A DNA stretch of 64,000 bases, taken from NCBI GenBank assembly GCA_031277855.1, contig JAITLO010000049.1:1-64000 (forward strand), written 5' to 3'. The notes beneath the pieces were generated by a model, which worked only from the letters and a program-made list of their open reading frames with translations, was not told the origin of the DNA and made no database searches. Below are positions 45,241 to 59,278 of this stretch, piece by piece; the stretch's first letter is position 1, and every line of letters starts with the position of its first letter. Position numbers and translations under genes: made by a program. This DNA is from Acidovorax sp. (GTDB taxonomy: Bacteria; Pseudomonadota; Gammaproteobacteria; Burkholderiales; Burkholderiaceae_C).

Positions 45241-45302
45241 GGCAGGCTCACAGATACGGTTGCTGAGAAGGAATGCCCGCATGCTAGGCAAGCCAATCCA
45301 TG

Positions 45303-45344
45303 AAGTAAAATGGTCTTATCTCACATATCAATGAACACTGCTCA
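45303..45344 (-). promoter_or_regulatory. Possible metE promoter with a MetR-like site
   Basis: TGAACACTGCTCA (45332-45344) differs by one base from the MetR consensus TGAA-N5-TTCA and lies about 90 bases before metE. On the minus strand TTGATA (45331-45326) and TTACTT (45308-45303) are 17 bases apart. Both are weak assignments. Confidence 0.3.
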
Positions 45345-45635
45345 TAATAAAAAACACCCATATCCATCGGCCTTTCCATGCGCAAGCGCACTCTTCTGGC
45401 CATCGTCCATCAGGCTGCAAAGCACGAGGTACTGATCGCCGTCGATATGGGCAGCATGGCCCATCTGCGTGAAGCCAGCGCATGAAAAATCGGAAAGCCA
45501 GCCAGGCCTTGGCGAGCAGTCTTCGCCCCTCATGAAGCGCCAGCAGCGCTCCTCAAAGAGGAGCTACAAAAGCCTTCCAGGCTTGCGATAGACAGCCAAA
45601 ACACTGCAAAACCGGTACAGCACCGCCAACTCAAA
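45345..45635. other. Gene-free stretch between metE and the surface-protein operon
   Basis: No gene is supported. A 35-codon open frame (45378-45485, plus) and an overlapping antisense frame lack ribosome-binding sites and resemble nothing known. A partial copy of the downstream terminator stem (AGCCTTCCAGGCTTG, about 45570-45584) also occurs. Confidence 0.35.
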
Positions 45636-45671
45636 AAAAAGCCTTCCAGCACCAGGCCTGGAAGGCTTTTT
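45636..45671. terminator. Strong bidirectional terminator
   Basis: A perfect 14-base inverted repeat (AAAAAGCCTTCCAG, 8-base loop, CTGGAAGGCTTTTT) has T-runs on both strands. It lies about 230 bases past the end of the surface-protein operon (minus strand) and probably ends that transcript. The stretch 45672-45800 holds only CCCTCACCCCC/GGAGGGGCGAGGG-type low-complexity sequence. Confidence 0.85.
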
Positions 45672-45800
45672 CCCGCTGTCACAGCGGATCGCAAATCAAG
45701 CTACAAGCAGCCCCTCACCCCCACCCTCTCCCCGGAGGGGCGAGGGAGTAGAGCCAGGACGCAGCGCATAAAACCAGCGCAGCGCTGGCAGCGCCCCCAG

Positions 45801-45897
45801 ATCAGAGACAGCGAGCAAGGGCCTACGCCGGCCGCGCCGCCCCGCCGCGAGGCTGTCGTCCCCCTGGGGGGAAGGCGCCGCAGGCGACTCAGGGGGG
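45801..45897 (-). repeat. Dispersed stop-abutting repeat, copy D (after the barrel gene)
   Basis: Read on the minus strand it begins four bases after the TAA of the 1395-residue gene with CCCCCTGAGTCGCCTGCGGC. It continues with CTTCCCCCCAGGGGGACGAC, AGCCTCGCGGCGGGGCGGCG and GGCGTAGGCCCTTGC. It is the most complete copy and aligns with copy A over almost its full length. Confidence 0.75.
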
Positions 45898-45900
45898 AGG

Positions 45901-48900
45901 TTAAAAGGTACTCAGCACGTTGATAAACCAACCCCGGCTGCGGTAGGACAGGTCGGTCAAATCATCCGAGTAGTTGGTGAAGTTGTAGCCCACGCCTGCC
46001 TTCACATGCTTGCCCACATGCTTGTAGACGGCCACCAGCGCGCCGGCGCGGGCATCTTGCGCTTCCTTGGCGCGCAGATTGCGCACCTCGGTCACGATGT
46101 CCCACTCACGCACCCAGTGCCAGTCGGCACGCACCACCACCAGATCGGCGCGGCTGGAGAACCATTCGCCCTCGGTCTTGTTCATGCGCAACTTGCCCAC
46201 ACGCAGACCGTACTTGAAGCCCAGCGACAGCCAGGGCTTGACGTCCCAGATGGTGTCGATAGAGAAGATCTGGCTTTTCTGTGCGTAGTCGGCAATGCGG
46301 CCATTGCTGTCCAGCTGACCGGCCGTGGGCACGTTGTTGTAGCTGGTCAGCTTGACCAGGGTGTTCCAACGGTCGTTGTCCACGGGGCGGTAGGCAGCAC
46401 CCAGCACGGCTTCGTGGAAGTTGCCGTCGTAGAAAGCGCCTTCCGAATTGCTGCTGCGCGAGATGTTGAACTTGCCCAGCAGGCGCCATGCCTGGCTCAG
46501 TTGCTGGCCATAGCTGTTGCGCAGCAGCCAGGTGTCACGGGTCTGGCCATTGCTGTTTTTGTCGCGGCGCAGTTCCACGGCGCCGGCGTACTTCAGGCCT
46601 TCGTGCTTGTAACTGGTCGAGAAGCCCACGGCCTTGCGGTCGTAGTCACCACCGAGTGCATCGGTGATGGTGCCGAACTCCATCTTGGTGCCGAAGTTCC
46701 AGCGGTCGTTGGGTGCCAAGTCCACACCAAAAGCCTGCACCAGGCTTTGCGAGCCGGCGCCGTCGGTGGCGCGCACCTCGCCGAACAAACGCGTGGTGTC
46801 GTTGAGGCGGTAGTTGGAACCCGTCACCCAGCTGCCGTAACGGCCACGGTAGTTGCTGTCCGGATTCTCGCTTTCCAGGCGGTAGTTCAAATAGGCGTTG
46901 CTGCGGTCGCTGATGCGGTAGTCCGCGCCCAGCATGCCTCCGGTGCCCAGATTGCCGCCCGAGGCTTCGGCATTCAGCGCCCAGCGATCGTTCAGGCGCA
47001 ACTGGCCACCCACGCCCACGCGGTTGTTGGCATCACGCTCTTCCGTGCGCTCCACCGTGCCTTGCACAAAGCCGTAGAGGGACCAGTCTTCCTTCTCGCC
47101 GGGCTTGCCGCCATCCTTGAGCGGCACGTAATCCGCGCGCAGCTGCAGGTCGGTACGGGCACCGTTTTGCGACAGCGTGGGGCTGGCATTGGCCAACTTC
47201 ATATGGCGCTTGTCGTGGCGCATGCCGGCGGTGACGGCCCATTCCTCACCCAGCTGATGGCGCAAGCCCAGCTCGGCGTTGTTGGAACTTTGGTAGTCGC
47301 CCTCGCGGTCATCGGCCTTGGCCTGCAGCGTGGTTCGCTCGGTCAGCGGCAGCTGGGCCTTCAGGCCCATCTGGCGAATGGCCTCGCCGTTGTAGGCAAT
47401 CTGGCCAGGGGCCGAATAGCCTTTTTCCCGGTCCTGCACATAGGCGCTGACCGTGCCCTTGTGGTTGTCGGTGACCTCGGCCAGGTCCACCGTGGCCTCC
47501 ACGCGGTAGGCCTTGGCATCTGCCGCGCTGGCACCGTTGACGGGGTTGAAGCCATAGCCACCATCCACCGACGAGGTGGTGGTGATGTCGCTGACGCCGC
47601 TGGAACGGGCCACCTCGGCCTTGACCTGGGTGCCGGCTGCCACGCGTACCGTGGCATCCATGCCTTGCAGCGTCTGGCGGTATTCGTGCTCGCCCTGGCG
47701 GTAGCCCGTCAGGCCCACACGCAGATGGTCGTTCACCCAGTGGCTGACACGGCCGCCATAGGCCATGGAGTCCACCGCGCTCACGCCCGGCACGTATTCA
47801 TAGGTCACCACCAGGTGCAGCGGATTGCCCGACAGCGCGCTGGTGTAGACGATGCTGCCCGCCGATGCCGTGGACGGCAGGGGCGCGCTGAGCATGATGC
47901 GGCCCTGCAGGTAGTTGACCTCATAGTCCTGACCGGGTGCCAGTTGGCGGCGCTCGATGACGATGCCGGAGTCGCGGTCGCGCACTTCCACCCACACGCG
48001 TTCCGAACCCACGGTCACATCCTGGTGGCGCATGTAGTAAAGCGAGCCGCCCGTGCCACGGAATTCCTCACGTGCGCCCATGGTGCCGGGGTCGGCTGCA
48101 AAGGCGTCGAGGCCGGTGCGGCGCTCGCCGAAAGCCGTGGCGTCTTCCGAGCGCAGCTTGACGCGCGCGCCGTACAGGCCGCGCGAATACTGGATCAGCT
48201 CCGAGCCGCTCCACGAGGTCTGGAAGTTACCCCACATGACCTGGGAGTCGCCTTTTTCCAGGCGCACAAAGAACTTGCCCTGGGTGGGCGCATCGTCCAC
48301 CGTGGTGCTGTCGTCGCCATAGACCGGGTAGTAGGTGTCCGGGTCGATGCGGCGCAGCAGATAGCGCGGGTCCTTGGCGGTGAAGTTGCTGAACAGGTCT
48401 TTCAGCGGCTGCTCGCGCGTGTCGGCGGCGGCCGTCAGCAGCCATTCGCCCTTGATCTTGCCCTTGAGGTAGAAGGCACCGCGCCCGTCCACATAGGTGT
48501 TGTCGCGGTAGTGCTGCAGATCGTTGGTGACCAGCTCGGCCGGGCCGGTGGTCTTGTTCTGGCCTATGGTCAGATCGCCCACGGCCACATAGAACCAGTC
48601 GTTGTCGGGAATGGAGACGTTGCGGCGGAAGGTGGCCGTGCGGCCGTCCGTGCCCTTTACGCTCACATCCACACCATGTGGGCCGGTGGACAGAATCTGG
48701 CGCGCCACAAAGCGGCCGTTGTCATCCACGGGAATCTGCTGGCCCAGTACCGTGACGGTTTCACCGGGCTTGATCTTGGTGCCGCTGACGGTGATGGTGC
48801 CGCCGCGCACGGGGATGTTGCTGACCTGCAGCGCGTTCTCTCCCCAGCCCACCAGAGCCTCGCGACTGGGCTTGTCCAGATCGTTCAAAGGCCGCGCGCG

Positions 48901-50088
48901 GGTGGCGATGTTCAGCGACTTGGTGGCCGTTTCATCGAAGCGGCCCTTGCGGTCGTAAACACGCAGCACATAGATGTATTCGTCCTGGCCTTCCACCGGC
49001 ACGGTCCAGGCCGTGGTGGTTTCCCAGTGCAGCGGCAGCACGGCCAGGGCCTTGCCATCGGTGGGCTCTCCCTTGCGGAAGACGCGCACCTCGGCACGCT
49101 CAATCCAGCTGAGGTAGTTGCTCCAGCCACGGAACTGCACAGCCTCGCCGCGCAGCGTCACATCGGTGGTGGCCCAGACGTTCAGCGCCGGCTTGGCGGC
49201 CAGATCGTCGTACTTGATCTGGATGTCGGCACGCTCCAGGGCCACGTCCACGCAGCGCTGGCGGTCGGCCTCGTTCACGGCGGCACCTGACATGTCCTCG
49301 CCATCCACGGTGATGCGGAAGGGCAGATCGGCCGTATCCCGCACTGGGGCACAGGCGTCGGCAGGTGCGACCACGGCAGGCACGGGGGCTGCCACGGGTG
49401 CGGCGGCCTCATCCCACCACAGCGTGATGGCCACGCGGCGGTTCTGGGCCATGCCCTGGGGGTTGGCATTGCTGGCCACAGGCTGGGTCTCACCATGGCC
49501 GCTCATGGCCACGGCTTCGGCCGGCAGGCCCAGGCCACGGCGCAGATAGCTGGCCACGGCCAGGGCACGCGCTTCAGACAGGCCCTGGTTGTCGCGGAAC
49601 AAGCGCTTGGTTTGCGGTGCCAGGCGCTGGCTGTCGGTATGGCCAACCACGGCAATGCGCACGCCCTGCTTGCCCTTCAATTGGGCCACCACGGCATCCA
49701 GCGCAGCCAGTGCGGCCGGCGTCAGATCGGCCTTGCCGGAAGCAAACAAGGCCCCCGATGTATCCGACTCGGCCAAGGCCACGGCCTGCTGGGCCGGGGC
49801 CAGGGGCAGCGTGGCATTGGCGGCGCGCATGGCCTCGGCCTCGGCACGCGTCACCCCGGAAGGCAGGGCGTAGCCAAAGCCTTGCGGCACCTGTTCGGAC
49901 GGTGGCGGCATGGCCACCATCATCTGGCGCGCGTTGTCCACACGCTTGCCTTTGTCGGCTTCTGTCTCGGCCGCATCGGCCCAGGCCACACCACCACCCA
50001 GTAGCAGCAGGGCCGCTGCGCAGGCGATGGACGAACGACTCCACTCGGGACGCGCCGCAGCGCGCCCGCTTTGCTTCAACGGGTTCAT
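45901..50088 (-). CDS. Outer-membrane beta-barrel protein with N-terminal OmpA domain
   Basis: The 1395-residue protein has a signal peptide (about 1-37). An OmpA-like peptidoglycan-binding domain follows (about 111-225; VVGHTDSQRL, NQGLSEARALAVASYL, QNRRVAI). Beta-rich Ig/filament-like segments run to about 500 (NIPVRGGTITVSGTKIKPGE). The large C-terminal region is a beta-barrel with alternating aromatic strands, ending in the outer-membrane signature ...WFINVLSTF. The recurring segment DTYYPVYGDDSTT is typical of an uncharacterised family found with DUF11-repeat proteins. It overlaps the giant gene upstream by one base (TAATG). Likely role: anchor, secretion channel or assembly partner for the giant protein; this is inference. 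It has no plug or TonB box that I can see. Confidence 0.82.
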   Translation of the reverse strand: MNPLKQSGRAAARPEWSRSSIACAAALLLLGGGVAWADAAETEADKGKRVDNARQMMVAMPPPSEQVPQGFGYALPSGVTRAEAEAMRAANATLPLAPAQQAVALAESDTSGALFASGKADLTPAALAALDAVVAQLKGKQGVRIAVVGHTDSQRLAPQTKRLFRDNQGLSEARALAVASYLRRGLGLPAEAVAMSGHGETQPVASNANPQGMAQNRRVAITLWWDEAAAPVAAPVPAVVAPADACAPVRDTADLPFRITVDGEDMSGAAVNEADRQRCVDVALERADIQIKYDDLAAKPALNVWATTDVTLRGEAVQFRGWSNYLSWIERAEVRVFRKGEPTDGKALAVLPLHWETTTAWTVPVEGQDEYIYVLRVYDRKGRFDETATKSLNIATRARPLNDLDKPSREALVGWGENALQVSNIPVRGGTITVSGTKIKPGETVTVLGQQIPVDDNGRFVARQILSTGPHGVDVSVKGTDGRTATFRRNVSIPDNDWFYVAVGDLTIGQNKTTGPAELVTNDLQHYRDNTYVDGRGAFYLKGKIKGEWLLTAAADTREQPLKDLFSNFTAKDPRYLLRRIDPDTYYPVYGDDSTTVDDAPTQGKFFVRLEKGDSQVMWGNFQTSWSGSELIQYSRGLYGARVKLRSEDATAFGERRTGLDAFAADPGTMGAREEFRGTGGSLYYMRHQDVTVGSERVWVEVRDRDSGIVIERRQLAPGQDYEVNYLQGRIMLSAPLPSTASAGSIVYTSALSGNPLHLVVTYEYVPGVSAVDSMAYGGRVSHWVNDHLRVGLTGYRQGEHEYRQTLQGMDATVRVAAGTQVKAEVARSSGVSDITTTSSVDGGYGFNPVNGASAADAKAYRVEATVDLAEVTDNHKGTVSAYVQDREKGYSAPGQIAYNGEAIRQMGLKAQLPLTERTTLQAKADDREGDYQSSNNAELGLRHQLGEEWAVTAGMRHDKRHMKLANASPTLSQNGARTDLQLRADYVPLKDGGKPGEKEDWSLYGFVQGTVERTEERDANNRVGVGGQLRLNDRWALNAEASGGNLGTGGMLGADYRISDRSNAYLNYRLESENPDSNYRGRYGSWVTGSNYRLNDTTRLFGEVRATDGAGSQSLVQAFGVDLAPNDRWNFGTKMEFGTITDALGGDYDRKAVGFSTSYKHEGLKYAGAVELRRDKNSNGQTRDTWLLRNSYGQQLSQAWRLLGKFNISRSSNSEGAFYDGNFHEAVLGAAYRPVDNDRWNTLVKLTSYNNVPTAGQLDSNGRIADYAQKSQIFSIDTIWDVKPWLSLGFKYGLRVGKLRMNKTEGEWFSSRADLVVVRADWHWVREWDIVTEVRNLRAKEAQDARAGALVAVYKHVGKHVKAGVGYNFTNYSDDLTDLSYRSRGWFINVLSTF

Positions 50089-53000
50089 TAACGGACTCCT
50101 TCTGCCTTGCTCTGTTCAAAGGACTCCGTCTCGATCACCAGCGGTGGTGTGTCGTCCTCCTGTTGCTTTTTCTGCTGTGCCTGTTGGGCATAGCCATCCT
50201 GGATGCGCTGGGTCAGCGCCTTCAGACGCTGCTCGGCCACACCCTTGTCTTCGCCCGTCATGCGATAGGCGATACGCAGCACCGTGGGGCGCTCGGCCAG
50301 TTGCGTGAGCAACTGGGCAATTTGCTCGTCCCACTGCGCGGACAGCTGCTTGCCATCGTCTGCAAAGGCACGACCATCCACTTCCAGACGCAGCACCTTG
50401 TGCACCGTGGCGCCAAAGTTCAGCTTCACCATCTTGCCGCGGGTCACACGCACATCACGGGGGTTTTCCGTGGTCATGCGGTAGCCCGAAGGCAGGGTGC
50501 GCTCGTCCAGTTTCATCACAAAGTTGCTGCCGCGGTCCGCCTGCGGAATCGCTGCGCAAGCCACGTGGAAGCGGCCGTCGGCATCGGTGGTGACCAAGAG
50601 GCCACGCGCCGTCACCACACGCACATTGGGAATGCCTGGCTCGCCCTGGTCCTGGTAGCCGTTGGCGTTCTTGTCATCGAACACCTTGCCGATCAGGTCG
50701 GAGCAGTCAAAGGTCGGGTCGGGCGTCACACGCACCAGTGCACTGGCCACGTTGGAGATGCGCTCGTTCACCTGGCTGTTCAGCGCCCAGGCCTGGTTCA
50801 CGTATTCGCCCTCGCCCACACCGGCACCCACCACCAGCAGCAGCTGGTAGGTTTTCTTCTCGTTGGTGGCAAAGCCCTGGTTAGGCCAGGTCAGCTCGCG
50901 GCCATTGACCTCGGGCTCCACCGGCATCTTGTTCCAGGTGGCCGATCCCTTGCGGTAACGGAAGCCCGGAGGCAGCAGATCACGCACCCGCACATTGGCC
51001 AGCGCACCACCACTCATATTGGTGGCCGTGATGGTGTAGGGCACCAGATCACCCTTGGCCACATTCACCTTGGGCGTGGTCTTGGTCACCAAGATGGCAC
51101 CACCTGCCAGCACCGGGTCCAGCGGAATATGGTTGTTCAGGATTTCCGAAGAACCGCCACGGGTGATGTTGAAGCGCAGGTAGTACTGCGTGCTTTGCTG
51201 CGATGCTGCAAACGGCGCCGCACTAGCAAAACCTGTGGGAGTCGCCGGGCATGCCAGCGGGTCGTGCGCCACCTGCGACAGACCTGGCGCATCACGTTGG
51301 CCCTGGATTAGTGCCGGCACACCGCCGGGCAGCATCGTCACATTCAGCGTATTCACACAGGCCGGAATCATCACCGACTGACCGGGCAAATAGGCTGCAG
51401 GCGCCGACTGGATGGTCAGCACATATTCACCACTGGGGTAGTTGTTCTGCAGGATGAAGCTGTAGCGACCATCCGTGCCCGTGGTCTGGTTCTGGAAGCT
51501 TGCGCCGCCCACCAGGTGGGTGGATGGATCGAACACACCCGAACCATTGAAGGTGATGCCCACCACCGCGCCCGCCACCGGCTTGCGCGTCACAGCGTCA
51601 TACACCACGCCCTCGGGGTCCAGCGGCAGGTTTTGCTCCACCACCTGGTCGGCTGCTTTCAGCTTCAGGCCTGTGATCTGACCTCCACCGGCCGTACCGG
51701 CACCATCACCGGACGATGCCATGCTGGGCAGCACATTGCCATCCTTGGCGAAATGGATGTTGAACGTCGCACCATTCAGGCTGTCCGAAGTCGGCAGACC
51801 GGTTTCATGGCCGGGGCAATGCAGATTGTCGAACTGGTAGAAGCCATCGGCATTGGTCTGCACCGTGCAGATTTCCTGGCCCGTGCTGGTACTCAGGCGC
51901 ACGGTCCATCCATGCTGACCATCGGTGTTCATCGGATCGCGCACGCGGTCATGGCTGTGGTCCATGTACACATAGCCGTTCACGATGGGAGGCACCAGGC
52001 CTTGGGAGCCAGACCCCTGGCGCACACCAAACATATAGCCACTCAACTGACCACTGTGCGCCGCGATTTTTTCAGGCGTGACCACGATGCTGCCAATGGT
52101 GTTGTAGCCTGGCTGGGTGCCAAAGTAGCGGTTTTCCACCGTACCGTCGGCCTTGCCCGCTGTCTCGATGCCGTCGGTGTAATCCTTACCCTTGCCGGTG
52201 TAGTACTCGGTCAACTGGTTCTGGTTCTTCACCACGTCATACGTTCCGGGTGGCACGCCTTCAAATGCATAGCTGCCATCGGCCTTGGTCTTGGTCACGC
52301 ACTTGTCTGCACGTGCTGCACACCAAGCCGGGTCACCCGACTTGTCAACCAGCCTAACCTCCACGCCTTCCAGGCCCGGAGCGGCCTCTGGTGCCGTGCC
52401 CGATGTTTCCACATAGACCTTGCCGCTGATGGTGGCGCCGGTTTCCCCGAACAGATAGTCCGTATAGGCCTTGCCTCCAGACAGCTTGATGTCGCTGATG
52501 GTGTTGCATCGTGCTTCGTTGCACTGCTCTGTTGACGGTTTGCCACCACCCGTGCCGGCCTTGTCACGGCCATCCAGATAGCCGGAAGGTTGGCTCTCTA
52601 CCAAGTCATAGTCGCCATCCGGAATGCCCGAGAAGCTGAACGAACCATCAGGCTTCGTCTTGGTCTCATAGGACTTGGACGGATTGTTCTTATCCACCAA
52701 GGTCACCGTCACATCGCCGATACCTGGCTCGTTGCCAGAGCGGTCACCATTGTTGTCGGTGTCGATATACACCCAGCCCGAAAGCGTGTTGGCACTTTCC
52801 TGGAACAGATAGTCCACGGCATCCACGCTGCCGCCCACTTGCTTGGGCTGCAGCTTCACCGTGTCGATCTTGGAACTGGTGCTGTCCGATGCCGCATTGC
52901 TGGGCTTGCCACCATGGCTGCCCTCTTTGTTGAGCAGACTGCCGTAGCCTGCGGGCTGAACTTCCACCACCTGGTAGCTGCCTGCGGGCAGGTCAGGGAA

Positions 53001-56000
53001 CTTGAACACGCCCTTGTCGTCAGTAGTCACCTGGCAAGGCTTGCTGCCTTGCAAGGTCGTATAGCTCTCCGAAGGTGCTGCGCAAATCTGCGCGCCCGTA
53101 CCCGAGGTGCCGGTGATGTAGACCTTGACACCTTCCAAGGGCTTGTTGAATGCCTCTTGCTCAGGCTTGCTCACGGCCTCAACCTTGCCCGCCAGCGAAT
53201 ACAGGCGCTCACCAAAGTCAAAGCTGCCGTGCTTGGTCGCGTCATCCAGCACGATCTTGCTGAACTTGTTGTTTTCCACAACCACGTTCGGGCTACCGCT
53301 CTTGCGTGTGGTGCCGTCCGCATAGTCATTCAGCGGGTAAGCAGAGTTATCCGCCCCGGCTTCTTGCACCACGGTATAGCCCGTGGCATCGCTCAAGGGC
53401 AGCTCGGGGAACACATAGCTTCCGTCGGCAGCCGTGGTCACGGTGCAGCGTGCCGCACCGAGCTCCAAGCAGATATCCACGCCATTCGAGGTCTTGCCAG
53501 ACAGTGTGATCTTGACGCCGGCAATACCGGGCTCGGAACCACCTTCCACAAACACACGACCGGAAATGCTGCGTGCACCGGCACCACCACTGGTTTGAAA
53601 GCCGAAGTTGTGCTCGGCCTTTTGCTCCTCGCTGCCCAAGTTGACAGCAATGGACGTCGACGTCGTATCCGCTTGCTTGACCGCCGCGACCGAGGCGCCA
53701 ATATAGGTCAGTGCGGTCGACGATGTGACCTCAACCGTATAGCTGCCAGGCTTGAGCTTGTCGAACTTGTAGGCTCCGTTAACGGTTTTTTGCACCGGAA
53801 CAGAGACCTCGGCGCCGGTGTAGTCGCGCCCCTTCAGGGTAATGGTCTGCGCACTCAGCTGCTGATCCTTGCTGGCGTTACGCACGCCATCGCCGTCCAT
53901 GTCCTGGAAGGTGTTGCCGCTGATGGAGCCGGGCTTCACCTCGGCAAAGACGATGCCCTCCACCTTGCCACCGTCGGGTACAACGACCTTGGTAATGGAG
54001 TCATCTTTACCCTCTTCCGCAAAGGAAGTGGGCACCGTGCCAACCGGGGTGAAATCCTTGTAGTCCAGATAGCCTGTGGGCTGCTTCTGGGTAATGGTGT
54101 AGCCATTGCCATCCGACGGCGGAATGCCCTCGAAGCTAAAGCTGCCGCCATTGATCTTGGGTGTCGTGATTTCGACGTCATTGCCCCATTTGTCCTTGCC
54201 CTTCAGGGTGATGGACACATCCGAGGCAGGCACTGGAGGCCAGGACTTGAAGTCAGGGTTGGTGCTTAGGTCGGTATGGGGGGGGGCCACCACAACCTTG
54301 CCGCTCAATGTGGAGGGCTGCACGCTCACCTTCACCTCGGGCGTCTCCACCGGTTCTTTCGGCAAGAAGCTGGGGATACCCTCCTTGTCCACCGTGGGTC
54401 CTGCCAGAGCCTTGTTCTTCAACAAGGTGCCGGTGTAGCCCAGCTTGACACGTACCGGAATGGTGACCGTGGCCATCTCGTCTTTTTTCACTAACGGCAG
54501 CTCACAGGTCACCGTCTGACCTGATGTGGTGCACACCCCGTTCAATGTGCTGCTGACTTTTCCCCCAGGGACCAGCTCCAGATTCCCATCCAAGGTGTCT
54601 TTCACCACCACCTTGGCCGCAGCAGATGGCCCTGTGTTGCTGACCTTGATCAGGTATTCGAACGGTTGGCTCACAGTCACTGTGTCTGGATTGACACTTT
54701 TTTCGACCTTCAGCACGGCACGCGGCACCACCACAGTTTTTTGGGTGGTTTCGTTGTTGCTCGGGTTGGAGTCCGACGCAATACCGCCTTCCTCCGCGCC
54801 TACATAGGTTTCGCTGGAAAACACTTTGCCCTTGAGGGCATAGGTCTTGAAGCCTGACAGGCTTTCTGCCACGTTGTCAGAGGCTGCCACCTTGAATGGC
54901 AAGATGAATTTCTTGTTTTTATTGGCCTCCAGCACACCGCCGTCATCTGTCAATGCACATTTCCAGGCCCATTCCCCACCTGCAGGCGTCATCGGCAAGC
55001 ATGCCAAGCCGGCAGGGAAAGAAACGCTTTCCATACTGAAGCCCGTCTCCTCCGGAGGAATGCCCTTCAGATAAAAGCTCACATTGGTCGCTATCGACGG
55101 ACCTTTGTTGCTGACGATGAGTTCGTACTTCACCTCACCATTCAGCGGCGATGGGTCTTGAACCAAGCTGCCGTAGTTGTCCTCGATGGTGATCAGCAGG
55201 TCGACGCTTTCCTTTTTCACCTTGGCGATAGCATCGTTCTTATCGTTGGTGGTATCGGACTGCTTCGTGCTGGTTTCGATCGTGGATACGGAGAGATAGT
55301 CTGCACACTCGCTACGATCCAAAGCCATGCGCGCCATCCGGCCAGCAGGAGCCGTGCAGGTCTTGTCCAAAGCCAGATTGCCATAAGCATCGCCAAACTT
55401 GGGGGTCAGCTCGACCAGCATCTGCAGGCCTTCATTGGGAATCAGTGACCGCGTCATCTTGCACACCACAAAGCTATTGCTCAACGGTGTGCCTGACTCG
55501 ACAGAACATATCCCTGCATTGCCATCGGAAAGCCGCGGATTCTTCGCATCCATCAGCGACAAATCAACCGACTGGCGAACCACGACAGTGTCCGCTGCAT
55601 TGGCGCCCAGGTTGGCAAAATCCGTGCGGAATGTAGAGGCCACGCCAACTTGCATGGGCGTGGACGGTGGAATCACTTGGCTGACGGTGACATCTGCCAG
55701 TGCAGTGGGCGTTGTGCCCGGTGCACCACCTGGAGACTCTGTACCTTCATTGGGGATCTGTGTATCCACCGAGCTCACACTGAAGGTATTGGAGAGCTTG
55801 GTCACATCAAAAGGACGGCCCACCGTGATCTTGATGGAGGCTGTTGCTCCGTTGGACAGCATGCCCAATGTGCACTCCACCACAGGGTCGGTCACCGCCT
55901 TTTTTGGGCAGGTGGTTCCCGCAGGTGCCCCCGAGACATCCACTGTCACCTTGGTCGCATCGCCGACCTTGGGCTTGAACCACATAGGCAAGGTGTCGAC

Positions 56001-58013
56001 CACCTTGACCCCCGATGCGGCGTTCGGCCCATCGTTCTTGATGGTCAAGGTATAGACAATGGTGTCCTTCGTCGGATCACTGGAATCCGGTTGGTTCAGC
56101 TGCCCGGTCTTCCCCAGGCCCAATCCCGCCGTACCCGGCACACCTTTCAGTGTGGCGCTATACGTCGCAGGCGGCAACCCTGCTACCACTTGATCGACTG
56201 AAACAGTGTTGGTAATGGACTGGGTTCCCGTGCCCTCAGCCAGAGCATCGATCAGCAAAACAGGTAATGCGGCGCCGATAGCCAAATCTTCCGTCAGCGT
56301 GTAGCGACAAATAACCGTCATCGGTGCCATCGCACCTGCAGGGTCCGTACACGCCCACCCCACTCCCTGGTAGCCCGTGTATTTTTCGTAGCGGCCCAGT
56401 TGTTCTGTCACGGTGATCACGCGTGGATTTCCGGAGGCATCCAGCTTGGGCACTGCCGCCGTAGCCGTCTGCCCATCGTTTTTCACGGTGATCGTGCTTT
56501 GCAGCTTGTCGTTCCAAGTGGCGGGAATGTCATCACGCCACTTTCCACCAATAGATGCTTTTTTGCTCTTCCCGATGCTGAGCATCGGCTGCAACGGGTG
56601 AATGGTGTAAGCCACCACGGCATCCGTCAGCAGAAGCTGATCCACATTGGCAGGCTTGGAAGCGCTGACCTTGGCCGTATTGGTGCCAGACAACGCTGTC
56701 GTCGACTCCTGGGACTTCATCGTGAACAGGAAAGCTCCGCTTTGGTCCTGGTCCTTAGTGAGCGTGCCCACCAAGCAGCTGATGGAAGTGCCAGTGCTTG
56801 CGCTGTAAGCCCCCACCGTGCAGCGGTTGTCCGACGTTTTAACGTCGGTGAAATGCGCAGGCACGGTATCCGTGACGATGACATTGTCTGCCGTCACCAC
56901 CCCTGTATTCTTCGCGCCCAACTTCATGGTCACGCTTTGCCCCGCAACGATCTTCCCGGTACTTCCCTCCATCGTCTTGGTCGCTGCAAGCTTGATCACA
57001 GGCGTCACATTCACCGTCACCGACGCCTTGTTGTTATCGAGCTTGGTCTCCTTCACGGAGGTCACACCATCGCCCAATTTGACCGTCACGTCATTGATCT
57101 GGGTGCCACTGCTTTGCAGCACGCGGCCCGTGATGGCAATCGTTTTTTGAGCGCCAGCCGCCAGCGCACCCACCTCACAGGTCACTGTAGTACCGCTGCG
57201 GCTGCAGCCGCCTGGCACAGTGGAGACTTCAAGGTTGTTGGCTGCGGGCAAAGCATCGATCAGAACAACCGAGGGCGCAGCCACGTCCGTGCTGTGGTTG
57301 GTAACCACCATGGTGTAGGTCACCATGTCACCAGCATTCACAGGATTGGGGGACGCCGTCTTGGTGACGCCCAAATCCACCGTTTGCACCACAGTCAATT
57401 CGCTCTGCGTGATTTCCGTGGCCCAGCCACCATCCAAAGGCTTGCCTGCCGCAGCAAAGGCAAAGCTGCGGCGATTGCCAACACGCTCCCCCTTGGCAGT
57501 GAATTCAATAGGCCAAGTAGTGCCGGGAACCAAGACCTCATCGCGCTGGCAATACAGCATCGTGGTTTGCTGCAGCTCACTCATATCCGCCAGCATCCCA
57601 GACCCAATCATGTCCTCCTTGGGAGGCATCTGCCGATTGGGATCCCCAGCCAACACATCATAGGAACCGAAGGTACAACCCGAAGGCGCTGTGCCCGGCG
57701 AAAAATGAGGTGGCACAGTCAACAGCACATAAGTCGGCGCAACCGTTTTCATCGATTGAATAGAGGCCTTCAGCGTGCTGATACCCCCTACGCCAACCTC
57801 CGCTGACTCAACCAGATAATGCGTCACGGACACAGGAGAGTTCGACGCCGCCACGCTGATGCCCCACACGGCAGCGACCAAAAGGCCTAGCGCCAAAGCC
57901 CCTCCATGGATGGAGCGCCGCATGCGTCGCAGCCCCCCGCAGACAACGGCATACAGCTGTGCCACAAGGGGCAGCAACCGTCGACGGACCCAAGAAGGCG
58001 GGGAGTTCAACAT
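50088..58013 (-). CDS. Giant surface protein with DUF11 and SdrD-B/CnaB repeats
   Basis: The 2641-residue protein starts with an unusually long basic N-region before a hydrophobic helix (about 36-56, signal or anchor). DUF11-type repeats then run to about 1230 (TKTASPNPVNAGDMVTYTMV, KSVNPDTVTVSQPFEYLIKV). Six or more SdrD-B/CnaB-like repeats follow (about 1236-2100; GWVYIDTDNNGDRSGNEPGI, SGRVFVEGGSEPGIAGVKIT). Another DUF11 unit lies at about 2301-2420 and a final SdrD-B unit at about 2441-2530. The C-terminus (about 2539-2641) looks like a degenerate OmpA-type domain. Such repeats form long stalks in adhesins. No LPXTG or autotransporter barrel is present, so export or anchoring probably depends on the coupled downstream barrel protein. 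The repeat region is less G+C-rich than its surroundings. Confidence 0.85.
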   Translation of the reverse strand: MLNSPPSWVRRRLLPLVAQLYAVVCGGLRRMRRSIHGGALALGLLVAAVWGISVAASNSPVSVTHYLVESAEVGVGGISTLKASIQSMKTVAPTYVLLTVPPHFSPGTAPSGCTFGSYDVLAGDPNRQMPPKEDMIGSGMLADMSELQQTTMLYCQRDEVLVPGTTWPIEFTAKGERVGNRRSFAFAAAGKPLDGGWATEITQSELTVVQTVDLGVTKTASPNPVNAGDMVTYTMVVTNHSTDVAAPSVVLIDALPAANNLEVSTVPGGCSRSGTTVTCEVGALAAGAQKTIAITGRVLQSSGTQINDVTVKLGDGVTSVKETKLDNNKASVTVNVTPVIKLAATKTMEGSTGKIVAGQSVTMKLGAKNTGVVTADNVIVTDTVPAHFTDVKTSDNRCTVGAYSASTGTSISCLVGTLTKDQDQSGAFLFTMKSQESTTALSGTNTAKVSASKPANVDQLLLTDAVVAYTIHPLQPMLSIGKSKKASIGGKWRDDIPATWNDKLQSTITVKNDGQTATAAVPKLDASGNPRVITVTEQLGRYEKYTGYQGVGWACTDPAGAMAPMTVICRYTLTEDLAIGAALPVLLIDALAEGTGTQSITNTVSVDQVVAGLPPATYSATLKGVPGTAGLGLGKTGQLNQPDSSDPTKDTIVYTLTIKNDGPNAASGVKVVDTLPMWFKPKVGDATKVTVDVSGAPAGTTCPKKAVTDPVVECTLGMLSNGATASIKITVGRPFDVTKLSNTFSVSSVDTQIPNEGTESPGGAPGTTPTALADVTVSQVIPPSTPMQVGVASTFRTDFANLGANAADTVVVRQSVDLSLMDAKNPRLSDGNAGICSVESGTPLSNSFVVCKMTRSLIPNEGLQMLVELTPKFGDAYGNLALDKTCTAPAGRMARMALDRSECADYLSVSTIETSTKQSDTTNDKNDAIAKVKKESVDLLITIEDNYGSLVQDPSPLNGEVKYELIVSNKGPSIATNVSFYLKGIPPEETGFSMESVSFPAGLACLPMTPAGGEWAWKCALTDDGGVLEANKNKKFILPFKVAASDNVAESLSGFKTYALKGKVFSSETYVGAEEGGIASDSNPSNNETTQKTVVVPRAVLKVEKSVNPDTVTVSQPFEYLIKVSNTGPSAAAKVVVKDTLDGNLELVPGGKVSSTLNGVCTTSGQTVTCELPLVKKDEMATVTIPVRVKLGYTGTLLKNKALAGPTVDKEGIPSFLPKEPVETPEVKVSVQPSTLSGKVVVAPPHTDLSTNPDFKSWPPVPASDVSITLKGKDKWGNDVEITTPKINGGSFSFEGIPPSDGNGYTITQKQPTGYLDYKDFTPVGTVPTSFAEEGKDDSITKVVVPDGGKVEGIVFAEVKPGSISGNTFQDMDGDGVRNASKDQQLSAQTITLKGRDYTGAEVSVPVQKTVNGAYKFDKLKPGSYTVEVTSSTALTYIGASVAAVKQADTTSTSIAVNLGSEEQKAEHNFGFQTSGGAGARSISGRVFVEGGSEPGIAGVKITLSGKTSNGVDICLELGAARCTVTTAADGSYVFPELPLSDATGYTVVQEAGADNSAYPLNDYADGTTRKSGSPNVVVENNKFSKIVLDDATKHGSFDFGERLYSLAGKVEAVSKPEQEAFNKPLEGVKVYITGTSGTGAQICAAPSESYTTLQGSKPCQVTTDDKGVFKFPDLPAGSYQVVEVQPAGYGSLLNKEGSHGGKPSNAASDSTSSKIDTVKLQPKQVGGSVDAVDYLFQESANTLSGWVYIDTDNNGDRSGNEPGIGDVTVTLVDKNNPSKSYETKTKPDGSFSFSGIPDGDYDLVESQPSGYLDGRDKAGTGGGKPSTEQCNEARCNTISDIKLSGGKAYTDYLFGETGATISGKVYVETSGTAPEAAPGLEGVEVRLVDKSGDPAWCAARADKCVTKTKADGSYAFEGVPPGTYDVVKNQNQLTEYYTGKGKDYTDGIETAGKADGTVENRYFGTQPGYNTIGSIVVTPEKIAAHSGQLSGYMFGVRQGSGSQGLVPPIVNGYVYMDHSHDRVRDPMNTDGQHGWTVRLSTSTGQEICTVQTNADGFYQFDNLHCPGHETGLPTSDSLNGATFNIHFAKDGNVLPSMASSGDGAGTAGGGQITGLKLKAADQVVEQNLPLDPEGVVYDAVTRKPVAGAVVGITFNGSGVFDPSTHLVGGASFQNQTTGTDGRYSFILQNNYPSGEYVLTIQSAPAAYLPGQSVMIPACVNTLNVTMLPGGVPALIQGQRDAPGLSQVAHDPLACPATPTGFASAAPFAASQQSTQYYLRFNITRGGSSEILNNHIPLDPVLAGGAILVTKTTPKVNVAKGDLVPYTITATNMSGGALANVRVRDLLPPGFRYRKGSATWNKMPVEPEVNGRELTWPNQGFATNEKKTYQLLLVVGAGVGEGEYVNQAWALNSQVNERISNVASALVRVTPDPTFDCSDLIGKVFDDKNANGYQDQGEPGIPNVRVVTARGLLVTTDADGRFHVACAAIPQADRGSNFVMKLDERTLPSGYRMTTENPRDVRVTRGKMVKLNFGATVHKVLRLEVDGRAFADDGKQLSAQWDEQIAQLLTQLAERPTVLRIAYRMTGEDKGVAEQRLKALTQRIQDGYAQQAQQKKQQEDDTPPLVIETESFEQSKAEGVR

Positions 58014-58300
58014 GTAAAGCTTTCAGCAACCCAAAGTGATCACGCGCACGATCACCCAGGCAAGACAAAACGAAAAAAGGAACGGAATGGCCACACGTCA
58101 GGCGTGGACCATCAATCGACCAGCGGGCCGACAATTGGCTCGAATTTTAGGAATTGTCTGATTTACATGTAGGACGATGTCTATAAAGACACAATTTTTG
58201 ACTTTTAGATACTGAACTTTCTACTGTTTAACAACACTTACTATGTTGACGAAAAGATAAGAACGCGTAAACAAGAATATTTCGAACAAATACGAAAAAT
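58014..58300 (-). other. AT-rich upstream region of the giant surface gene
   Basis: No gene is supported. From about 58140 the sequence is strikingly AT-rich for this chromosome and contains TGTCT-ATAA-AGACA (58179-58192 region). The promoter or promoters of the surface operon are expected here. Several candidate -10 boxes exist, and none can be chosen with confidence. Confidence 0.4.
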
Positions 58301-58351
58301 AAAGAACTGCACACTGTGTGCATTCTTTGAACTGTCACAAGGTTTTGACAG
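58301..58351. promoter_or_regulatory. Two adjacent palindromes upstream of the surface operon
   Basis: TGCACACTGTGTGCA (58308-58322) is a perfect 7-1-7 palindrome, extended by AAAGAA on the left and TTCTTT on the right with one bulge. Ten bases later CTGTCA (58332-58337) faces TGACAG (58346-58351). Both lie about 300 bases before the giant gene. They could be operator sites for an unknown regulator or RNA hairpins. Confidence 0.4.
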
Positions 58352-58481
58352 GGCCTGAGGCTGCCCGGTCACGGGCTTCGGGGAGTGAGGTGCGAGATGT
58401 GCATGGCGAGCGGCATGAGCCATGTGCGCGGGAGTCCGGGGGCCTTTCAGCTCGGGCTCCAAGCCCCATCTCGCCAAAGAG

Positions 58482-58507
58482 AAAAAGGGATGGCCTTGCA
58501 CCATCCC
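58482..58507 (-). terminator. Intrinsic terminator after rpe
   Basis: On the minus strand GGGATGG, a 7-base loop and CCATCCC are followed directly by TTTTTCTC, 88 bases past the rpe stop. A second perfect inverted repeat (CTCAGCCTGG/CCAGGCTGAG, 58519-58540) lies just before it without a T-run. The stretch 58352-58481 holds nothing else recognisable. Confidence 0.75.
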
Positions 58508-58594
58508 ATGGCCATGTTCTCAGCCTGGCTCCAGGCTGAGCCCGCGCACCCTTTGCCGGCGGGCGAAGAGCGTGTGGAGGCTGTGCTTGGCTTG

Positions 58595-59278
58595 TTAAGC
58601 CGCCAGATTGGCACGCATGGTGTCGATCACGGCCTTGTAGTCGGGCTTGCCGAAGATGGCGCTGCCGGCCACAAAGGTGTCGGCGCCGGCATTGGCCACG
58701 GCGCGGATATTGGCTTCCTTGATGCCGCCATCCACTTCCAGGCGAATGTCCTTGCCAGAGGCTTCAATACGCTTGCGAGCGGCCTCCACCTTGCGCAAGG
58801 TGCTATCAATAAAGCTTTGACCGCCAAAACCGGGGTTCACGCTCATCAAGAGGATGAGATCGATGTCCTCGATCACCCAGTCCAGCACCTCCAGGGAGGC
58901 TGCGGGGTTGAACACCAGGCCGGCCTTGCAGCCATGGCTTTTGATGTTCTGGATGCTGCGGTGCACGTGCGCAGAAGCATCGGGGTGGAAGCTGATGAAA
59001 TCGGCGCCGGCCTTGGCAAAGGCGCTTGCCAGCTCGTCCACGGGCTGGACCATCAGGTGCACGTCGATGGGCACGGGCTTGCCATCGGGAGTCACTGCAT
59101 GGGGCTTGACGGCCTGGCAAATCATGGGGCCGAAGGTGAGGTTCGGCACATAGTGATTGTCCATCACGTCAAAGTGGATCCAGTCGGCGCCGGCGGCAAT
59201 GACGTTACGCACTTCTTCACCCAGGCGGGCGAAGTCGGCAGACAAGATAGAAGGGGCAATGCGGTAGGTGGGGCTCAT
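58595..59278 (-). CDS. rpe: Ribulose-phosphate 3-epimerase
   Basis: Rpe interconverts ribulose 5-phosphate and xylulose 5-phosphate in the pentose phosphate pathway. The 227-residue TIM barrel has [13 protein letters not shown] at the start, [17 protein letters not shown] (metal-binding histidine and aspartate), [20 protein letters not shown] and [11 protein letters not shown]. Length is normal. It is divergent from apaG with 31 bases between the starts, so promoters must overlap the coding ends. Confidence 0.96.

Follow-up and report, generated by a model that had tools for sequence, protein, structure and literature searches.

A giant DUF11 protein and an adjoining OmpA-barrel protein form a conserved pair in Pseudomonadota, a candidate surface-fibre system

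The ways in which Gram-negative bacteria export and retain giant fibres of isopeptide-type domains are, to our knowledge, largely open. A locus of Acidovorax sp. raises this question directly. In the stretch of 64,000 nucleotides analysed here (the window; contig JAITLO010000049.1), a gene for a 2641-residue repeat protein (positions 50088-58013 in the open reading frame list, minus strand) is followed by a gene for a 1395-residue protein with a barrel-like C-terminal region (45901..50088, minus strand). The TAA stop codon of the former and the ATG start codon of the latter share one base (TAATG) at the junction AGGAGTCCGTTAATG (50088..50100, minus strand), and the ribosome-binding-like AGGAG read in this sequence lies just 5´ of the ATG; the two genes are presumably translationally coupled. 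Both reading frames and their one-base overlap agree with a preliminary description of the locus. From their translations, the flanking genes look like metE and rpe. The giant gene is preceded by an AT-rich leader of 0.58 kb (58014..58590, minus strand; 51% G+C vs 62% in the window), in which no promoter-like site was found. At gathering scores, Rfam has no match in the window, including this leader. A scan of 45250-58700 was uninformative, with 2 promoter-like sites against 2.8 expected and 16 terminator-like sites against 11.0 (sd 3.5).

The giant protein (50088..58013, minus strand) is composed of DUF11 (CLIPPER), SdrD-B/CnaB and SpaA-type β domains. The Pfam scan places DUF11 in six stretches, SdrD_B in seven and SpaA in three, and the DUF11 matches reach E 3.1e-66 in Pfam and E 4.9e-46 in NCBIfam (TIGR01451). 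The giant is the sole DUF11 match in a search of the genome. A Sec-type signal region is located at residues 1-56 (57846..58013, minus strand), with a hydrophobic core at about 38-56; the signal peptides of both proteins were assigned by eye. The giant thus combines tandem DUF11 domains with a signal peptide in one long protein, the features that define DUF11/CLIPPER fibrillar surface proteins. DUF11 is described as an isopeptide stalk domain (PMC12617251, in excerpts), and a comparison by eye with this source indicates that the repeats of the giant, for example residues 213-334, retain Lys, Asp and Asn at isopeptide-forming places. Tandem repeats at the DNA level are limited to one minor array, so the protein repeats have diverged. 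No adhesive head domain scores above the Pfam cut-off, although a head of an unrecognised kind may be present.

The second protein comprises a signal peptide, an OmpA domain, an Ig-like region and a C-terminal barrel-like region, as delineated by the reading frame, Pfam and its relatives. The OmpA peptidoglycan-binding domain (PF00691, E 1e-18) spans residues 114-217 (49438..49749, minus strand) and carries both the GHTD motif and an LSxxRA motif (LSEARA), which together mark OmpA-family peptidoglycan-binding proteins. An Ig-like domain at residues 430-492 (48613..48801, minus strand) resembles Glucodextran_B; its score is below the Pfam cut-off in the window (24.6 bits vs 27) and reaches 52 bits at the corresponding place of the single-chain relative L115. 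Alignment of the relatives defines a common core at residues 292-1395 (45904..49215, minus strand), for which no Pfam or NCBIfam model scores above cut-off. The best 25 of 36 NCBIfam families for the protein are all OmpA-type matches at residues 91-245, and the relative L137, which has no OmpA domain, matches no NCBIfam family and, in Pfam, only DUF2490 below cut-off. The barrel profile found no sequence relative in the PDB apart from one chance match (E 0.7); homology to the type IX translocon SprA was compared at this level of sequence only.

The last part of the core, residues 841-1395 (45904..47568, minus strand), is rich in amphipathic strands and ends in Phe, whereas residues 501-840 score as a non-barrel β protein. 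The strand scanner counts 29 strands for the window protein and between 23 and 29 for 11 relatives, a crude count that shifts with the scanner setting and gives only the order of size, since five non-barrel stretches reach about 25-75% of the mean barrel density at the setting that best fits four barrel controls. These controls were E. coli LptD (23 counted), FhuA (22), BamA (17) and OmpF (17), for which we take the true numbers to be 26, 22, 16 and 16, with domain limits likewise assumed. Sub-cut-off Pfam matches include OMP_b-brl (E 0.0096 in the window and 1.5e-5 in L112) and Porin_4 (1.5e-4 in L115). These features suggest that the C-terminal region is probably an outer-membrane barrel. 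The signal peptide (by eye), the OmpA domain (Pfam) and the terminal Phe that the preliminary description had read in this protein are all present. In the genome, the barrel is found at this locus alone; five other matches are OmpA domains.

The giant itself carries a conserved C-terminal module. An iterated profile and the alignment of relatives define it at residues 2385-2608 (50190..50861, minus strand), and the last ~225 residues of the giant are 55-86% identical to those of the window among the first ten relatives. The module starts with the end of the last DUF11-like domain, which is followed by a terminal SdrD/CnaB domain, the ENPRDVRVTRGKM segment and a degenerate OmpA-like domain; the segment that joins the SdrD/CnaB domain to this remnant reads ENPRDVRVTRGKMVKLNFG. 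The degenerate domain covers residues of about 2540-2630 (50124..50396, minus strand) and lacks the GHTD peptidoglycan motif. Its OmpA-like assignment comes from profile comparison with the OmpA domains of the partner proteins, which gave 96.6% when OmpA-bearing intermediates were part of the set and 75% (E 2.4e-5) once these had been removed; the maximum in 30 shuffles was 2.6%. By this measure the tail is OmpA-like. It closes with the strand LVIETE (50124..50141, minus strand), a pattern that 35 of 40 short-tailed giants share close to their ends, counting L144 and the contig fragment L145. The giants end in the terminal SdrD/CnaB domain and most also have the degenerate OmpA-like domain; five from two-gene loci (L119, L137, L138, L139 and L143) retain just the CnaB part. 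In two-gene giants, the iterated profile matches the module at the C-terminal end; 19 of 25 natural single chains contain it on the N-terminal side of the barrel. The preliminary description had overlooked both the module and the single-chain forms, which were found among the relatives. It had also seen no recognisable secretion signal in the giant: Pfam bears this out for an autotransporter barrel, but the conserved module at the C-terminus had escaped it.

Are the two genes dedicated to each other? Relatives were gathered by a related-locus search (11 loci, one of which, L016, is an OmpA-only match) and by whole-genome searches of genus, class and phylum samples together with annotated plasmids. 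At E 1e-20, 49 of the 369 genomes in the class sample and 54 of the 398 in the phylum sample have the barrel. Nearly all long barrel matches and 15 of the short, diverged ones were retrieved as loci; 88 had a barrel of at least 150 bits, and the removal of two duplicate records left 86, with near-identical species counted singly and the window as one of them. A giant with the C-terminal module lies directly upstream of the barrel (overlapping or <70 bp apart, earliest starts taken) in 55 of the 86, including the rearranged L084; this definition requires the module in the neighbouring giant, and its presence in the 55 is therefore not independent evidence. Giant-type domains and the barrel are joined in one chain at 25 loci, and at L132, the sole case of its kind, the giant (L164) is located 46 bp downstream of the barrel. 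Giant and barrel thus adjoin or form one chain in 81 of the 86 loci. The remainder are four loci cut by a contig end (L046, L049, L100 and L152) and L151, which is split over several frames and has pieces of DUF11 type upstream. Independently of the definition, every barrel locus with intact flanks and frame has such a neighbour.

The genome counts point in the same direction. Nine of the 53 genomes in the genus sample have the module, and the same nine have the barrel. In the class sample, the module is present in 34 of 369 genomes, 33 of which have the barrel; the exception, G250, contains partial matches at contig ends only, and in G388 and G090 the two lie on different, fragmentary contigs. 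Sixteen barrel genomes of the class sample fall below the module threshold. Ten of these were viewed as whole neighbourhoods and comprise eight single chains with DUF11-like domains, one contig-end case and one broken frame; an eleventh, G266, is a fragment at a contig end. A DUF11 domain by itself occurs much more widely (120 of 339 class genomes), so the module rather than DUF11 marks the partner of the barrel. The preliminary description had called the genes a dedicated pair and had named homologues found mostly apart as the result that would speak against it; the counts bear out the pairing. The conservation is well supported by these sequence comparisons, and relatives of the pair, some of them fused, are spread across Pseudomonadota.

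The single chains keep a constant order of DUF11/SdrD-B domains, an OmpA domain where present, and the barrel. On the barrel tree (76 rows, quick method, LG+G4, no bootstrap), which was built after 12 duplicate, near-copy, truncated or broken loci had been dropped, the single-chain and two-gene labels require five changes, at least four of them on starred branches, compared with about 21 changes in shuffles. Among the single chains, L105 could owe its fused state to an assembly error of one base at a four-base overlap; the architectures of the others diverge further. A single-chain relative in genome G164 (contig C2; L110 and L140) has an open frame of 11777 residues with the barrel at its end, and L115 carries invasin-type Ig domains in its fibre.

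The position of the OmpA domain varies among the relatives. At 20 bits in the stretch available for each locus, the barrel protein has a single OmpA copy in 16 two-gene loci and in L084, and three copies in 11; OmpA also occurs within 16 single chains and on a third gene after the barrel at L119, L120, L137-L139, L143 and L159. In eight loci whose barrel protein has none, it is located on the C-terminus of the giant. Together with the contig fragment L146, nine giants have such a C-terminal domain; a GHTD/GHAD motif is present in 9/9 and the strict LSxxRA pattern in 2/9. At the same score, OmpA is absent from the stretch examined in 14 of the 54 two-gene loci and in 7 of the 25 single chains, although two of the former, L087 and L089, appear OmpA-bearing by eye; OmpA-mediated binding to the cell wall is accordingly predicted for part of the loci. 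Given the function of OmpA, its placement on the giant, the barrel protein or a third gene suggests that the C-terminus of the giant is periplasmic, and it favours the anchoring role that had been proposed for the barrel protein.

We consider it reasonably probable that the two genes form a dedicated surface-fibre system, in which the giant is exported by the barrel protein, which also fastens the C-terminal end of the giant to peptidoglycan. Both proteins would reach the periplasm via Sec. The second would insert into the outer membrane as a large β-barrel, and its periplasmic N-terminal part, with the OmpA and Ig-like domains, would bind peptidoglycan. The fibre of isopeptide-type β domains would then go through the barrel to the surface with its N-terminus outermost, while the terminal CnaB domain and the degenerate OmpA-like domain ending in LVIETE would remain periplasmic. 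The grip of the barrel protein on this module would tie the fibre to the cell wall. If extended, about 20 β domains would give a fibre estimated at roughly 80-90 nm. At the sequence level, the proposal draws on both genes, their conserved pairing, the module, the natural single chains and the varied placement of OmpA. Periplasmic tethering is fairly supported; export by the barrel protein is inferred. An outer-membrane location, contact between giant and barrel, peptidoglycan binding, passage through the barrel and adhesion are each expected from the proposal. The crude strand count, the loci with no OmpA domain at 20 bits, the five giants with the CnaB part only, the L144 giant with no adjoining barrel, the absence of the LVIETE-type strand from 5 of 40 short-tailed giants and the Acinetobacter DUF11 adhesin discussed below count against it.

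The strongest rival holds that the barrel is an anchor only: the giant would come to the surface along some other pathway, and the OmpA-like module at its C-terminus would attach to the barrel protein and peptidoglycan on the periplasmic side. The occurrence of OmpA on either partner or on a third gene fits this explanation, and TraA/TraB offers a precedent (PMC12045341, in excerpts). The single chains fit self-export better, as they unite barrel and fibre in one polypeptide. Moreover, the barrel core of about 1100 residues is retained at full length in most two-gene forms, and no alternative export route is evident, with no RTX family detected by Pfam (E up to 1) in either the giant or the barrel protein, a result that also sets the pair apart from type I RTX adhesins as far as RTX repeats are concerned. 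We regard an anchor-only role as unlikely. A second rival, in which the pair, with the giant mostly periplasmic, connects the outer membrane structurally to the cell wall or forms a surface layer, and has no role in surface adhesion, could account for the OmpA or OmpA-like domains on both window partners and for the lack of a recognised adhesive domain in the giant. Judged from domain size, a folded giant would far exceed the width of the periplasm, given that a single-chain frame reaches 11777 residues, and stalk domains of the isopeptide kind are characteristic of surface fibres (PMC12617251, in excerpts), which renders such a link very improbable.

The layout of the preferred export-and-anchor system recalls type V secretion. 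In type V systems, which enter via Sec, cargo and barrel are encoded together or as one chain, and both layouts are seen among the present relatives. The difference lies in the families. Neither protein has a TPS domain or a POTRA/ShlB family (Pfam, E up to 1; NCBIfam, the best 25 of 36 families for the barrel protein), the defining parts of type Vb cargo and partner, and the preliminary description was right to set the pair apart from classical two-partner systems. The type Va family PF03797 is absent from the window pair, from four single-chain relatives at E 0.001 and from three at E 0.01. No N-terminal intimin-type barrel of type Ve was found by Pfam, the barrel-like region here being C-terminal, and many single-chain relatives place an OmpA domain between cargo and barrel. 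A classical two-partner system or autotransporter of known class, for which the gene-pair and single-chain layouts, the terminal Phe and a chance-level match of the second protein to YadA_anchor (type Vc; E 0.12; 12.9 bits vs a cut-off of 22.7) might be cited, is barely plausible in view of these missing families, the OmpA-type NCBIfam matches and a barrel core that has no PDB relative by sequence. More tentatively, the relatives of the pair could represent an undescribed export-and-anchor class of Pseudomonadota, encoded by 1-3 genes, in which a barrel on the order of 24+ strands translocates an isopeptide fibre and clamps a C-terminal OmpA-like plug; as part of this reserved reading, the class would be type V-like in layout and show no recognisable sequence kinship.

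The YeeJ barrel of E. coli is on the N-terminal side of its passenger, and no intimin-type barrel family is present in the window pair (Pfam). We know of no single-chain TraAB. YeeJ, an inverse autotransporter, resembles the pair in that it is a very large surface adhesin, has a barrel and binds peptidoglycan (PMC5595812, in excerpts). The closest counterparts among known systems are TraAB and those DUF11 adhesins that have an OmpA-like anchor. TraA/TraB, the outer membrane exchange pair of myxobacteria, likewise combines a stalked surface protein and an outer-membrane β-barrel/OmpA partner that ties the complex to the cell wall, encoded in one operon; TraA differs in its Cys-rich stalk and MYXO-CTERM tag (PMC12045341, in excerpts). 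In TraB, the barrel is N-terminal and OmpA C-terminal, whereas the window protein has OmpA first and then the barrel, and the giant of the window ends in an OmpA-like module. The full-length TraB family NF033763 matches the barrel protein only at residues 123-226 (OmpA), with 35.8 bits where the cut-off is 700. The CLIPPER fibrillar adhesin B9T28_05395 of Acinetobacter silvestris shares the DUF11 isopeptide-type stalk and an OmpA-like C-terminal anchor with the giant, in which the anchor is degenerate and a barrel gene with its own OmpA domain adjoins; the excerpts of its description mention no barrel partner, so that such a stalk may surface otherwise (PMC12617251). A link to type XI secretion was rejected, as the DUF11 matches in excerpts of PMC12282271 were to DUF1194, bar one mention of DUF11. 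A search of the open-licence PMC literature returned no published description of the giant-barrel pair.

The family provides a sequence-recognisable cargo, marked by the C-terminal module, together with an adjoining partner in diverse Pseudomonadota, and its natural single-chain forms make the export-and-anchor idea directly testable. The module and the barrel also allow DUF11 giants of unassigned secretion route to be sorted into those with and those without a barrel partner. If export holds true, the pair would stand as a class of its own among type V-like systems.

Several loci show further arrangements. At L144 (10005-20000), a giant with the full module has no adjoining barrel, and a complete pair is located elsewhere in its genome, G352, where two giants may share one barrel. 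At L008 (14774-23482), the first pair is followed directly downstream by another DUF11 giant that has the beginning of the module, an arrangement that reads as tandem pairs in Accumulibacter. Two records of Comamonas avium (L013, 4635-13222; L084, 1142-9729) were taken as one locus, where the last third of the barrel gene (residues 974-1395) lies in opposite orientation at a distance of about 4-5 kb and the giant is spread over several frames; the sequence indicates an inversion or rearrangement within the pair. The barrel gene of L090 (13886-17167; G047) is split, and its last part is in a separate frame just downstream. On a plasmid of Eleftheria terrae (L141, 1-3336), genes with FecR and CHASE2 domains lie directly upstream of the pair and possibly regulate it. 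Diverged single-chain loci (L149, L150, L154, L155, L157, L160, L161 and L163) have small upstream proteins of 165-400 residues with one DUF11-like domain, which are possibly further subunits; of two from L157, Pfam identifies one as DUF11 and gives no match for the other.
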